Assembly (NCBI RefSeq): GCF_000331225.1
Contig: NZ_ANFY01000003.1
Coordinates: 1-64,000 of the forward strand
Source of the DNA: Sandarakinorhabdus sp. AAP62
GTDB lineage: Bacteria > Pseudomonadota > Alphaproteobacteria > Sphingomonadales > Sphingomonadaceae
Reading direction: 5' to 3'
DNA: 64,000 bases
Shown: one piece after another, positions 24,811 through 29,799 of the stretch
Layout: each line of letters starts with the position of its first letter
Position numbering within the stretch: the first letter of the stretch is position 1
Program-made: the position numbers and the translations under genes
Notes under the pieces: generated by a model
What the model was told of the DNA's origin: nothing
The model's input: only the letters and a program-made list of their open reading frames with translations
The model's database searches: none

Positions 24811-25998
24811 ATGGCTGACCTTGAAAGTTTCCGCGCCGAAACGCGCGCCTGGCTGGAGGCAAATTGCCCGCCGGAAATGCGCGAGCCGATCCGCGATGAC
24901 GACGATGTGTGCTGGGGCGGCCGCCAGTGCAAGTTCAAGAATGAAGCGCAGAAGCTGTGGCTTGAACGCATGGGCGCCAAGGGTTGGACGGTGCCGGAAT
25001 GGCCCAGCCAATATGGCGGCGGCGGGCTGGACCGGGCGCAGGCCAAGGTGCTTTCCGAAGAAATGCGCCGCATCAAGGCGCGCTCCCCCTTGTCGAGCTT
25101 CGGCATCTGGATGCTTGGCCCGGCGCTGCTGAAATATGGCAATGAAGCGCAGAAGCTGGAGCATCTGCCCAGGATCGCGCGCGGCGAGATCCGCTGGTGC
25201 CAGGGCTATTCCGAACCGGGTGCCGGGTCCGATCTGGCCTCGCTGCGCACGTCTGCCGAAGACAAGGGTGATCATTATCTCGTCAACGGTTCGAAGGTGT
25301 GGACGTCCTATGCCGACAAGGCGGACTGGATCTTCTGCCTCGTCCGCACCGATCCGGCTGCGCCCAAGCATCTGGGCATCAGCTTCCTCTTGTTCGACAT
25401 GGCAAGCGAAGGCGTGTCGACCAGCCCTATCAAGCTGATTTCCGGCTCCTCGCCCTTCTGCCAGACCTTCTTCGACAATGTGAAGGTGCCCAAGGAGAAC
25501 CTGATGGGCGTGCCCGGCAAGGGCTGGGACATCGCCAAATATCTGCTGACCCACGAGCGTGACATGATCGGCGGCAGCGATTCCACCGGCGGCGGCCAGC
25601 GCGACAGCGTGTCGAACATCGCCAAGCGCCTGATCGGCCTCGATGCCGCCATCCTGGCTGACACCGCGCTGCGCACCGACATCGCCCGCCACGAGATCAA
25701 CGCGCTGGCGTTTTCGCTGACGATGGAGCGGGTGATGGCCGAGACCAAGAGCGGCCAGGGCACCGGCGCGCTTTCGTCGATGCTGAAATATTACGGCACC
25801 GAGCTGAACAAGGAACGCATGCAGCTGCTGATGTCGATCCGCGGCAGCGACGGGCTGACCTGGGAAGGCGAGGAGAAAGGCGAAGGCGATCTGGCCCGCT
25901 CGTGGCTCAGGAGCCGCGCCAATTCGATCGAGGGCGGCACCTCGGAAGTGCAGCTCAACATCATCGCCAAGCGCGTGCTGGATTTGCCGGGGGCCTGA
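24811..25998 (+). CDS. Acyl-CoA dehydrogenase, catalytic-type subunit
   Basis: A 395-residue FAD enzyme of the acyl-CoA dehydrogenase family that inserts a 2,3-double bond into an acyl-CoA. YSEPGAGSDLASLRTSA is the FAD/substrate loop, and SIEGGTSEVQLNIIAKRVL contains the likely catalytic base Glu374. Ribosome site GAGAGGGAAG precedes the ATG. A second, Glu-lacking paralogue follows after a repeat block. This resembles the two-gene FadE pairs of actinobacteria and PimC/PimD, which form heteromers. Natural substrate unknown; steroid-side-chain-like, pimeloyl-like or branched acids are all possible. Confidence 0.9.
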   Translation: MADLESFRAETRAWLEANCPPEMREPIRDDDDVCWGGRQCKFKNEAQKLWLERMGAKGWTVPEWPSQYGGGGLDRAQAKVLSEEMRRIKARSPLSSFGIWMLGPALLKYGNEAQKLEHLPRIARGEIRWCQGYSEPGAGSDLASLRTSAEDKGDHYLVNGSKVWTSYADKADWIFCLVRTDPAAPKHLGISFLLFDMASEGVSTSPIKLISGSSPFCQTFFDNVKVPKENLMGVPGKGWDIAKYLLTHERDMIGGSDSTGGGQRDSVSNIAKRLIGLDAAILADTALRTDIARHEINALAFSLTMERVMAETKSGQGTGALSSMLKYYGTELNKERMQLLMSIRGSDGLTWEGEEKGEGDLARSWLRSRANSIEGGTSEVQLNIIAKRVLDLPGA

Positions 25999-26133: not shown

Positions 26134-27270
26134 ATGCCACTCATCCTCACCGACGACCAGATCATGATCCGCGATTCGGCGGAGGGCTTCTTCAAGGATG
26201 AAGCCCCCGTGTCCCAGCACCGCGCCTTGCGCGATGCGAAGGACGCCACCGGCTTCTCCCGCGATGTGTGGGCCAAGATGGCCGAGATGGGCTTTGCCGG
26301 CGTACTGGTGCCGGAAGCCCATGGCGGGGCGGACATGGGCCATGTCGCAGCCGGCATCATCCTGGAAGCGATGGGCAAGAATCTCAGCGCCGCGCCGATG
26401 CTGTCCACCGCCGTGCTGGGCGCCACCGCGCTGAAACAGGGCACGGCCGAACAGCAGGCCAAATATCTGCCGCTGATCGCGCAAGGCGCGCATCTGCTGG
26501 CGTTGGCCGCCGATGAGGCCGCCCGCCACAAGCCCAACCATGTCGCCACCACCGCCACCCCGTCGGGCAATGGCTTCAAGCTGAATGGCGTGAAGGGCTT
26601 CGTGCTCGATGGCGCGGCCGCCGACACGCTGATCGTTGCGGCACGCACGGGCGGCGAGACCGACGACAAGGCCGGCATCACCCTGTTCCTGGTCAATCCC
26701 AAGGCCGATGGCGTCACCATCGACAAGCGTTCGATGGTCGACAGCCGGGGCGCTGCCCGCGTCACGCTCAAGGATGTGCAGGTCGATGGCGCCGACGTGC
26801 TGGGCGGCGTGGGAGAAGGCTTTGCCATCCTTGAAAAGATGCTCGATGCCGGCCGCGCCTGCCTGGCTGCCGAAATGCTTGGCGTATCCGGCACGGCCTT
26901 CAGCATGACGGTGGATTATCTGAAACAGCGCGAACAGTTCGGCCAGAAGATCGGCAGTTTCCAGGCGCTGCAGCACCGCGCCGCGCACCTGTTCTGCGAA
27001 GTCGAACTGGCGCGATCGGCCACGCTGAAGGCGCTGCAGGCACTGGATGAAGGCAACGACCGCGCGCCGATGTATGTCTCCCTCGCCAAGGCCAAGGCCG
27101 GCGAGGTGGCGATTCTCGCCAGCAACGAAGGCGTGCAGATGCACGGCGGCATCGGCATGACCGACGCGTTTGACATCGGCTTCTTCATGAAGCGCGCCCG
27201 CGCCGCGCAGGAAACCTTTGGCGACGCCGCCTTCCACAGCGACCGGATTGCGCGAACGTTGGGCTATTGA
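26134..27270 (+). CDS. Acyl-CoA dehydrogenase family protein, likely non-catalytic subunit
   Basis: A 378-residue acyl-CoA dehydrogenase-fold protein. The N-terminal helical domain, the beta domain, and the helical C-domain with YLKQREQFGQKIGSFQALQHRAAHLF and QMHGGIGMTDAFDIGFFMKRA are present. At the position of the catalytic glutamate segment (IEGGTSE in the upstream paralogue) it has no equivalent; the protein ends RIARTLGY. It probably forms a heteromer with the upstream subunit, as in FadE26/27-type pairs. Both are read from the same strand, 135 bases apart. Confidence 0.88.
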   Translation: MPLILTDDQIMIRDSAEGFFKDEAPVSQHRALRDAKDATGFSRDVWAKMAEMGFAGVLVPEAHGGADMGHVAAGIILEAMGKNLSAAPMLSTAVLGATALKQGTAEQQAKYLPLIAQGAHLLALAADEAARHKPNHVATTATPSGNGFKLNGVKGFVLDGAAADTLIVAARTGGETDDKAGITLFLVNPKADGVTIDKRSMVDSRGAARVTLKDVQVDGADVLGGVGEGFAILEKMLDAGRACLAAEMLGVSGTAFSMTVDYLKQREQFGQKIGSFQALQHRAAHLFCEVELARSATLKALQALDEGNDRAPMYVSLAKAKAGEVAILASNEGVQMHGGIGMTDAFDIGFFMKRARAAQETFGDAAFHSDRIARTLGY

Positions 27271-27391: not shown

Positions 27392-27495
27392 AATGCCGCC
27401 ACGAATCCTTGCGCTTGCAACCATCGCCGGGCGTGGCATGAAGGGGATGTAACAAAACTGCGACCAGCAGCAGCAACCCCTTGGGAGAATCACGC

Positions 27496-29223
27496 ATGCA
27501 GTCCGCCCTCGACGCCGCCCTCGATCAGGTCGTCGCCGGTATCACGGCCCCCGGTGGTGCGCTCGGCGTGGGCACCGCCAATGTGCACGGCGTCACCCTG
27601 CCGGTGTTCAGCGCCGCGCCGCCGACGATGCGCGAATTCATGGCGATGTTCTTCACCGTGAACAGCGCCAAGGAGTTTCTGGTGTTCGGCGAGGAGCGCA
27701 TGACCTTCGCCGAGGTCTATGCCAGATCGCTTCACTTCGCCGCCATGCTGCAGCACCGCCACGGCATCGCCAAGGGTGACCGCGTGGGCGTCGCCATGCG
27801 CAATTATCCGGATTGGATCATCGCCTATGTCGCCTGTGCCCATATGGGCGCGGTGTGCATCCCGATGAACGCGTGGTGGACGGCCGAGGAAATGTCCTAT
27901 GGCATCGAGGACAGCGGTGCCCGCCTGGTGGTTGCCGACGAGGAACGCGCCCGCCGCCTCGCCACCCTGTCGTGCACGGCAAAGGTGATCACCGTGCGCA
28001 CCTCTGGCGAAGTCGCCAGCCAGCTTGGCTTTGCCCGCGCCGAGGATGAACTCGCCGCCAGTCCCGACACCATGTGGTATCTGCCCGAACTGCTGCCCGA
28101 AGATGATTGCACGATCATGTATACGTCGGGCTCCACCGGCGCGCCGAAGGGGGCGGTTTCGACCCACCGCGCGCAAGTGTCTTCCGCCATGAATTATCTG
28201 GTCACCGGGCTGGCGCTGCTGGAATTGTCGGCCCAGTCGGGCGCGGCACCGGCGGATCAGCAGGTGATGCTCCTGAATGTGCCGTTGTTCCACATCACCG
28301 GCCTGGTGCCGGTGCTGCTGGTCAGCTTTGCCATCGGCCGCAAGATGATCATCATGCACAAATGGGATGCCGGCGAGGCGCTGCGCCTGATCGAGAAGGA
28401 GCGCTGCACCTATTTCGTCGGCGTGCCGACCATGAGCCTTGAACTCATGCAGCACCCGGACCGCCACAAATATGATCTGTCGTCGCTGGTCGACATTGCA
28501 TCCGGCGGCGCACCGCGCCCGCCCGAACATGTCGAACGGCTGGTGAAGGAATTCGCAGGCAAGCACCCGGTGCAGGGCTATGGCCTCACCGAAACCAACG
28601 GCGTGGGTGCCGGCAACATCCGCGAGAATTACCGCAACAAGCCGGCCTCCACCGGCCGCGCGGCGCCGCCGCTGATGGAATTGCGCATCGCCGATGGGGA
28701 TGGCCCGGTGGGCGAGGCGCTGCCGGCCGGCACGGTGGGCGAAGTCTGCCTGCGATCGGTGTGCAACTGCCGCGGCTATTGGAACAAGCCCGAAGCCACC
28801 GCCGCGGCCTTCGTGGGCGATGGCTGGTTCCGCAGCGGCGATCTGGGTTACATCGATGAGGACGGCTATCTGTTCATCGTCGATCGCAAGAAGGACATCA
28901 TCATCCGTGGCGGCGAGAATATCAGCTGCCAGGAAGTCGAATCCGCCATCTATGCCCACCCGGCGGTGGCCGAAGCGAGCGTGTTCGGCCTTCCCGATGA
29001 ACGGTTGGGCGAGATTGTCGGCGCTGTCGTCTATGCCAAGCCGGGCGAGCATCTTGATCCCGATGCGCTCACCGATTTCCTGCGGGCCGGCCTTGCCGCC
29101 TACAAGATCCCGGCGAAAGTGTGGATCAGCAGCGACCAGCTGCCCAAGCTGGGATCGGCCAAGATCGACAAGGTCACGCTGAGGAAGCAGTATCGTGAAG
29201 TCTGGGCCGGAAAGGCCGCCTGA
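27496..29223 (+). CDS. Acyl-CoA synthetase (class I adenylate-forming)
   Basis: A 575-residue AMP-binding acyl-CoA ligase. A3 motif YTSGSTGAPKGAV starts at residue 209; GYGLTETNGVG, the hinge GDLGYIDEDGYLFIVDRKKDIIIRGGENIS and the catalytic Lys region GSAKIDKVTLRKQY are all present. The start is ATG 27496 with GGGAGA seven bases upstream. It follows the dehydrogenase pair and precedes the HD protein by 30 bases, so it likely supplies the CoA ester used by the dehydrogenases. Acid specificity is not known. Confidence 0.9.
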   Translation: MQSALDAALDQVVAGITAPGGALGVGTANVHGVTLPVFSAAPPTMREFMAMFFTVNSAKEFLVFGEERMTFAEVYARSLHFAAMLQHRHGIAKGDRVGVAMRNYPDWIIAYVACAHMGAVCIPMNAWWTAEEMSYGIEDSGARLVVADEERARRLATLSCTAKVITVRTSGEVASQLGFARAEDELAASPDTMWYLPELLPEDDCTIMYTSGSTGAPKGAVSTHRAQVSSAMNYLVTGLALLELSAQSGAAPADQQVMLLNVPLFHITGLVPVLLVSFAIGRKMIIMHKWDAGEALRLIEKERCTYFVGVPTMSLELMQHPDRHKYDLSSLVDIASGGAPRPPEHVERLVKEFAGKHPVQGYGLTETNGVGAGNIRENYRNKPASTGRAAPPLMELRIADGDGPVGEALPAGTVGEVCLRSVCNCRGYWNKPEATAAAFVGDGWFRSGDLGYIDEDGYLFIVDRKKDIIIRGGENISCQEVESAIYAHPAVAEASVFGLPDERLGEIVGAVVYAKPGEHLDPDALTDFLRAGLAAYKIPAKVWISSDQLPKLGSAKIDKVTLRKQYREVWAGKAA

Positions 29224-29253: not shown

Positions 29254-29799
29254 ATGTTCACCACCATGCTGGAAGGCACCAAGGACGACTGGATGCACAT
29301 CGCATCCGAGCATATGAAGCATCAGCAATCCGCCGCCGCCGATCAGATCATCGACTCATTGAAGCGGCTGGAAGCCATCGAGGTGGGTTTCGGCGCCAAC
29401 CAGCTCGTCCACAGCCTGATGACTGCCACGCTGGCCCGCCGCGACGGCGCCAACGACGAGGAAGTGGTCGCCGCACTGTGCCACGACATCGGCAAATTGT
29501 TCAGCATCCCCAATCATGGCGCCATCGCCGGCGAGATGCTGAAGCCCTATGTGGCCGACGACATCTATCACGCCATCGTCCACCACCAGGATTTCCAGGG
29601 CCGTTACTATTACGAGCACCTGGGCAAGGACCCGAACGCCCGCGAGAAATATCGCGGCGAGCCGTGGTTCGCCATGGCCGAAAAGATCGTCGACCGCTGG
29701 GACGCGCCGGCCTTTGACCCGAACTTCGACGTGGACAGCCTCGAAAGCTTTGAACCGGAAATCCGCCGCGTGTTTGCCGCGCCGAAGCGGGGCATCTAG
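29254..29799 (+). CDS. HD-domain protein, PhnZ-like diiron oxygenase candidate
   Basis: A 181-residue single HD-domain protein. Metal-ligand candidates are His53, His77-Asp78 (CHDIGKLF), His88 (NHGAIAGEML), His110/His111 (IVHHQDF), and a C-terminal Asp near AEKIVDRWDAPAF (147-150). The 24-residue step from the first His to the HD pair, the HxxxG helix after it and the C-terminal WD segment resemble PhnZ/TmpB mixed-valence diiron oxygenases rather than phosphohydrolases. It is the last gene of the acyl-CoA run, 30 bases behind the ligase. Enzyme class is an inference; HD-domain membership is firm. Confidence 0.8.
   Translation: MFTTMLEGTKDDWMHIASEHMKHQQSAAADQIIDSLKRLEAIEVGFGANQLVHSLMTATLARRDGANDEEVVAALCHDIGKLFSIPNHGAIAGEMLKPYVADDIYHAIVHHQDFQGRYYYEHLGKDPNAREKYRGEPWFAMAEKIVDRWDAPAFDPNFDVDSLESFEPEIRRVFAAPKRGI

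Follow-up and report, generated by a model that had tools for sequence, protein, structure and literature searches.

What an HD-domain protein does at the end of an operon of acyl-CoA genes is the question raised by a short gene of Sandarakinorhabdus sp. AAP62, which lies in the window analyzed here (the whole stretch of 64,000 nucleotides, positions 1 to 64,000 of contig NZ_ANFY01000003.1). A sequence-only reading had placed this gene 30 bases behind an acyl-CoA ligase gene and two acyl-CoA dehydrogenase genes, and had suggested that its product is a diiron oxygenase akin to PhnZ and TmpB but used outside phosphonate breakdown. The ORF coordinates and Pfam assignments bore out this arrangement, with 30 bases separating the ligase stop (29223) from the HD gene, whose start is preceded by GGGAG:

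24811-25998, + strand: acyl-CoA dehydrogenase, first subunit (ACAD1), by Pfam; PimC-like in NCBIfam, below cut-off
26134-27270, + strand: acyl-CoA dehydrogenase, second subunit (ACAD2), by Pfam; PimD-like in NCBIfam, below cut-off
27496-29223, + strand: AMP-binding acyl-CoA ligase (Pfam AMP-binding, 4.6e-83; the longest ORF begins at 27481)
29254-29799, + strand: HD-domain protein of 181 aa with an ATG start, a putative mixed-valent-diiron-type oxygenase (ORF, family scans and predicted model)

Judged by their sequences, each dehydrogenase corresponds to a different subunit of two-subunit enzymes: the best PDB matches of ACAD1 were Tcur3483 (6wy9, 6wy8_B) and 4x28_A, and those of ACAD2 included Tcur3481 (6wy8_A, the fourth match) and 4x28_D. 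The HD gene is present as a single copy in its own genome (next match, E 0.44). Pfam assigned its product to HD (E 4.2e-6) and gave a weak match to MIOX (PF05153, E 0.018), at 15.1 bits against a gathering score of 25. An E value of 4e-6 together with the family-wide conservation described below makes the HD assignment more than chance.

An AlphaFold2 model built on 22 homologues (pLDDT 89.4, pTM 0.84) was compared with solved structures, a comparison that the sequence-only reading had proposed for PhnZ. Foldseek against the PDB returned ten chains at E<=1e-3 for the predicted model, seven of PhnZ and three of TmpB, followed by MIOX (0.085) and the best HD-GYP protein (0.15). In VIA-align 2, the model scored highest with PhnZ (uncultured bacterium HF130_AEPn_1, 4n6w/4mlm; Z 18.5, rmsd 2.5, 152 residues), followed by TmpB (Leisingera caerulea, 6npa; Z 17.3), MIOX (2huo and 2ibn; Z 12.1 and 10.4) and glycyl-tRNA synthetase (Z 9.2 and 8.9), and no HD hydrolase in the list of 50 entries scored above 8.5 (YqeK 7.3, SAMHD1 7.0). 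A single-sequence search of solved structures likewise found PhnZ nearest (5e-6; TmpB 0.096), and a 21-sequence profile matched TmpB/PhnZ at 1e-12 to 6e-12, then MIOX (0.077) and Listeria Lmo0812 (0.094). HHalign with PhnZ/TmpB gave 98-99% over 146-148 columns (98.2% over 146 columns for the close family), whereas the HD-GYP control aligned only locally, at 37-39% over 27-35 columns (38.6% over 27 columns for the close family), and is a weaker control in that L253, one of its five rows, appears to be shifted. Sequence alignments to the NCBIfam and PDB oxygenases were local (residues 20-90, and within 49-90 for NCBIfam), with the span of the whole protein reached only by profile and structure. 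Profile and predicted-structure comparisons agree in placing the HD protein on the oxygenase side of the HD superfamily, and the kinship with PhnZ and TmpB that had been claimed is backed by sequence, profile and model.

Conservation was followed in 146 distinct family members, comprising 39 close and 107 distant ones, together with 21 PhnZ/TmpB references. The family loci derive from 212 matches that passed a length and no-stop filter, of which 163 were distinct and 146 had flanks longer than 1.8 kb; the short locus copy of the source genome itself was dropped and is represented by L052 (98%). Of 24 PhnZ/TmpB loci, 21 were retained (17 from TIGR03276, 9 above and 8 below its cut-off) by requiring the pattern H...HD[IVLM]G, so that ligands 1-3 are conserved there by selection. 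All residues singled out from the letters (H53, H77-D78, H88, H110/H111 and the C-terminal W149-D150) were found in the translation at those positions. The sites considered here are the following:

29401-29403, + strand: Q50 codon, at the site of the Arg of HD phosphohydrolases, three before the first His; Gln in 39/39 close homologues
29410-29412, + strand: H53 codon, predicted metal ligand 1; invariant in 146/146
29482-29487, + strand: H77-D78 codons, predicted ligands 2 and 3, D78 bridging by analogy; invariant in 146/146
29494-29496, + strand: K81 codon, equivalent in the MIOX alignment to the Lys of MIOX HDLGK; Lys in 39/39 close homologues
29515-29517, + strand: H88 codon, predicted ligand 4; invariant in 146/146
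29584-29586, + strand: H111 codon, predicted ligand 5; invariant in 146/146
29701-29703, + strand: D150 codon, predicted ligand 6; invariant in 146/146

H110 varies within the close set (W18/H17/Y4) and H111 and D150 are invariant, so the latter two are the likely ligands. The PhnZ/TmpB-like order of six ligands that had been claimed is thus upheld for these six residues, but H110 is not conserved and the motif is not diagnostic. According to the accessible part of a review (PMC8177086), the dinuclear hydrolase YqeK carries the same H...HD...H...H...D set, and HD-GYP proteins have H...HD...H...HH...D, with one extra His. The six-ligand motif is therefore necessary but not sufficient and leaves the chemistry undecided, and the earlier proposal to recognize a phosphohydrolase by a four-ligand site would not discriminate.

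A phosphohydrolase or phosphodiesterase with a dinuclear HD site, similar to YqeK or HD-GYP, could share these ligands and might for example clear the nucleotide by-product of the ligase, but we consider this unlikely. Phosphohydrolases have an Arg three residues before the first His of the HD motif (PMC8177086, accessible part). This position is Arg in 96/107 distant members, which counts against the whole family being oxygenases, whereas it is Gln in all 39 close homologues and in 14/17 PhnZ-type references. Some HD-GYP proteins likewise have a Lys at position 81 (Asp in 97/107 distant members and His in 21/21 PhnZ/TmpB references), so K81 is not diagnostic, and one relative is labelled 'phosphohydrolase'. 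On the other side stand the Z scores of YqeK and SAMHD1 in the predicted model as against that of PhnZ, the merely local alignment with HD-GYP, and the lack in the HD protein of the HD-GYP motif HHE..DG.GYP after the second His, where the sequence reads HHQDFQG. That the protein instead oxidizes phosphonates in the manner of PhnZ or TmpB is highly improbable, although the phosphonate enzymes are its nearest characterized relatives and a distant cousin on a Pseudomonas plasmid, described below, is paired with a TmpA-like TauD gene by choline genes. Its best NCBIfam matches, Phn-HD (7e-8), PhnZ1 (1e-7) and TmpB (4e-5), all fell far under the cut-offs (TIGR03276, 32.2 vs 214.6 bits; NF052439, 31.4 vs 300; NF049941, the TmpB score, 23.5 vs 300). 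In PhnZ, the Lys/Arg residues make contacts with the phosphonate. The Lys-Arg pair after the fifth ligand, present in 21/21 PhnZ/TmpB references, is Q115-G116 in the close clade (Q115 in 106/107 and G116 in 74/107 distant members), and the Arg at 147 and Lys at 154, also invariant in the 21 references, are D147 and F154. The YxxE loop before the first His is replaced by E43...F46, position 43 being chiefly E25/T6/Q5/V2 (the top four) in the 39 close homologues as against Tyr in 21/21 references, and position 46 being F39. PhnZ further differs in having a His at the place of K81 and a hydroxylase partner gene, and TmpB in having TmpA as a neighbour. F2, G8, T9 and D12, which the close clade has in common with most distant members, and the conserved W13 fall in gaps of most PhnZ/TmpB references.

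The missing YxxE loop and the four missing basic residues indicate that the protein is neither PhnZ nor TmpB and probably not a phosphonate enzyme; the loss of these basic residues and the gene context also back the non-phosphonate use that had been suggested. The operon contains no phosphonate gene, in agreement with the sequence-only reading. PhnJ (C-P lyase) is encoded on another contig of the same genome (C4 181921-182736, L263; E 8e-140), so this genome may use phosphonates by another route. MIOX shares with the HD protein the ligand pattern, the lysine of HDxGK and the lack of YxxE, but the Pfam score lies under the MIOX gathering score and the operon holds no hint of a link to inositol. 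In sum, the HD protein has the predicted fold and the ligands of HD oxygenases, and lacks the subfamily features of PhnZ/TmpB and MIOX as well as two hydrolase markers. It probably belongs to a separate, large and little-studied family of PhnZ/TmpB/MIOX-type HD diiron oxygenases. The nearest characterized relatives break C-P or C-C bonds with the help of O2.

In a tree of the 146 members and the 21 PhnZ/TmpB references, the 39 close members formed one clade (support 0.95) beside the 107 distant ones (0.93), and all 146 grouped together and separate from PhnZ/TmpB (0.85). The tree was built without MIOX, for which no reference was found in 150 genomes where the controls were silent as well. HD homologues occurred in 177/298 genomes sampled from the source family (E<=1e-3), 85/289 from the class (E<=1e-5) and 59/398 from the phylum (E<=1e-10), each sample containing nearer kin too. 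Named relatives with at least 71% identity belong to Sandarakinorhabdus, Polymorphobacter and unclassified Sphingomonadales or Alphaproteobacteria assemblies. Six relatives are annotated as 'HD domain-containing protein' (three), 'phosphohydrolase', 'hypothetical protein' and 'inositol oxygenase family protein' (one each), the last being an automated label on a distant relative. Among the literature matches listed, with most subscription papers outside the search, we found neither biochemistry for any family member nor an HD oxygenase tied to acyl-CoA genes.

Whether the HD gene travels with the dehydrogenases had been proposed as a further check. In 29/39 close loci the gene directly upstream, in the same orientation, is a ligase gene, and in 25/39 a dehydrogenase is upstream too; the ligase link is absent from two four-member sub-clades and from L051 and L207. 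The deep-branching L205 is also linked, to a 54% ligase, so the linkage is probably old, and the distant L136 carries homologues of ACAD1 (59%) and ACAD2 (47%) behind its HD gene. With thresholds of at least 55% identity for HD and at least 60% for the ligase, the HD gene was present in 33 of 298 family genomes: the ligase was adjacent in 22, adjacent at 54% in G040, unlinked in four (G005, G099, G161 and G210), lacking at E<=1e-150 in five (G142, G236, G272, G195 and G074), and represented in G203 only by a 49% ligase on another contig. Conversely, 13 of the 39 ligase genomes had no HD gene at 55%, some of them having an HD relative near 40%; these co-occurrence counts are not independent, as the genomes are related. 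The acyl-CoA partnership is thus frequent but neither strict nor obligate, and strict travel of the HD gene with the dehydrogenases was rejected given the HD genomes in which the ligase is unlinked or missing and the 13/39 ligase genomes without an HD gene at 55%.

A steroid substrate was also considered and was rejected as suggestive only. The likeness of ACAD1 and ACAD2 to the subunits of the steroid-linked Tcur3481-Tcur3483 dehydrogenase is accompanied by a match of the ligase to the steroid-24-oyl-CoA synthetase CasG (417.5/750 bits), second to the long-chain ligase PRK06187 (427/476 bits), both below cut-off. Yet there is no sign that the operon acts on steroids, the PimC, PimD and CasG matches all being below cut-off, and with a match at E<=1e-150 in 198/298 family genomes the ligase seems too widespread to serve steroids alone. 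Among the bile-salt genes of Caenibius tardaugens, neighbouring operons likewise encode dehydrogenases of two subunits and CoA ligases (PMC12882949, accessible part).

The neighbours of the distant cousins offer a further view of the family. PhnZ and TmpB act after the hydroxylases PhnY and TmpA (PMC8177086, accessible part), and TmpA-TmpB forms a two-gene operon (PMC10574752, accessible part). In 14/107 distant loci, a same-strand iron-hydroxylase-like gene lies next door within 150 bp (12 upstream, 2 downstream), of the PhyH (4), TauD (3), DIOX_N (4), fatty-acid hydroxylase (2) or Rieske (1) type. Five of these 14 neighbours (L080, L115, L116, L131 and L144) were directly named by Pfam and the rest were assigned by BLAST likeness to these five or to similar neighbours, with NCBIfam giving no family for that of L076 and weak PhyH-like families for those of L148 and L150. 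Hydroxylases occupied 15/214 adjacent versus 13/823 farther positions in distant loci (Fisher p 1e-4), a p value that is optimistic in that the 12 marker proteins were picked partly for adjacency. With the same 12 markers, hydroxylases were found at 0/78 adjacent positions in the 39 close loci and at 1/285 farther positions, a PhyH-like gene in L051; the pairing argument therefore comes from the distant cousins, and for the close clade the analogy is indirect. A class II aldolase is adjacent in five other distant loci, and the other scanned neighbours (among them GMP synthase, Rho, amino-acid permease, gluconolactonase-like, DHDPS and DNA methylase) are of unrelated kinds, so most distant loci show no hydroxylase pairing. 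Gene calls came from a home-made composition rule and are incomplete, most of all in AT-rich loci.

Two of the distant loci may be described individually. L080 (Pseudomonas aeruginosa plasmid pF045_1, 6857-12814) has a TmpA-like TauD gene (347 bits, cut-off 400) directly before an HD member that scores just 42.5 bits as TmpB, with genes for a choline-binding protein, choline dehydrogenase and aldehyde dehydrogenase beside it, and is perhaps a cluster for a quaternary-amine route. In L116, a Rieske oxygenase gene precedes a tandem pair of HD genes (44 and 40% identical to that of the source genome), and PhyH-like fragments lie upstream.

We put the probability that the HD protein is an O2-dependent HD oxygenase acting on a non-phosphonate substrate at roughly 60%, with iron and O2 use drawn by analogy from the characterized enzymes. 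By analogy with the HD-oxygenase mechanism summarized in PMC8177086 (accessible part), an Fe(II)/Fe(III) pair would be held by H53, H77, D78, H88, H111 and D150, a hydroxyl and a neighbouring anionic group of the substrate would chelate one iron (Fe1), and O2 on the other iron (Fe2) would take hydrogen from the hydroxyl-bearing carbon, leading to cleavage of the adjacent C-X bond in a four-electron oxidation without an external reductant. As the basic residues of PhnZ/TmpB are gone, the leaving group X is probably carbon. The likeliest reaction would shorten the chain of a 2-hydroxy or vicinal-diol acid by oxidative C-C cleavage, after which the shortened acid would be activated by the adjacent ligase and desaturated by the two dehydrogenase subunits; we propose this specific cleavage feeding the ligase only tentatively. 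No hydroxylase able to make the proposed substrate is evident in the operon. Just as speculatively, the widespread family might act outside phosphonate metabolism and supply the C-C cleavage in 'hydroxylate, then cleave' modules, with PhyH, TauD, DIOX_N, fatty-acid hydroxylase or Rieske partners depending on the bacterium. The source clade would be a branch that has moved into acyl-CoA catabolism, where it would trim a hydroxylated acid for the ligase and the two-subunit dehydrogenase in an O2-dependent, cofactor-regenerating alpha-oxidation.

Two other readings bear on this role in the operon. The HD oxygenase may be incidental to its neighbours, with a substrate unrelated to the acid of the ligase, which is possible though not favoured and would be compatible with the protein being an oxygenase on a non-phosphonate substrate. 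The close loci without a directly upstream ligase, and the 12 (L195-L205 and L212) that have same-strand downstream genes, including one of 747-805 aa, are in keeping with such independence, while the linkage in 29/39 close loci, that of the deep-branching L205 among them, and the dehydrogenase homologues behind the HD gene of L136 speak against it. It is improbable that the protein uses the HD fold, as Ddi2 does, for metal-dependent lyase or hydratase chemistry, for example on the enoyl-CoA of the dehydrogenases. An HD hydratase is known and the operon has no hydratase gene among its four same-strand genes, but Ddi2 has a Zn site in which the terminal Asp is replaced by Thr (PMC8177086, accessible part), whereas D150 is invariant here.

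If the reading of the HD protein as a non-phosphonate oxygenase is true, a further abundant group would widen the chemistry of the diiron cofactor, and candidate functions would be at hand for vaguely named proteins such as 'HD domain-containing protein'. MIOX, PhnZ and TmpB are the only HD-domain oxygenases listed in the accessible part of one review (PMC8177086); that of a later one also mentions two homologues, GmPhnZ and the fused PhoF (PMC10574752). Estimates of how many environmental genomes carry phnZ-like genes conflict, at about 20% versus under 1% of expected genomes (PMC10574752, accessible part), and we suggest that miscounted HD cousins may bear on this conflict.

Several loci show further features. 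In the 12 loci L195-L205 and L212, a same-strand gene begins 18-233 bp after HD, and the gene of 747-805 aa is the first or second downstream; in L195, the one locus scanned, it is molybdopterin oxidoreductase-like and is followed by ferrochelatase and short-chain dehydrogenase genes. No ligase is upstream in 8 of these 12 loci. L207 (G820, same phylum but another class) has an HD protein that is 57-58% identical; 270 bp downstream of its gene, in the same orientation, lies a gene for an AidB-like acyl-CoA dehydrogenase. The viral collection gave no match to the single protein, and with an alignment as query it gave one contig, L264 (IMGVR_UViG_3300032820_000196), whose HD member is 41% identical and is either contamination or an auxiliary gene. 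Four genomes of just 1.2-1.9 Mb (G345, G502, G564 and G494) retain a member of the HD family, and this persistence in reduced genomes suggests that the protein is useful. Among the Sphingomonadaceae loci L054-L072, whose HD proteins are about 40% identical, the HD gene is divergent, at 65-247 bp, from a LytS-type sensor histidine kinase gene in 15/19, usually followed by a LytTR-type response regulator gene (both identified by eye from the letters), and a regulatory link between the HD gene and this LytS/LytTR-type pair is possible.
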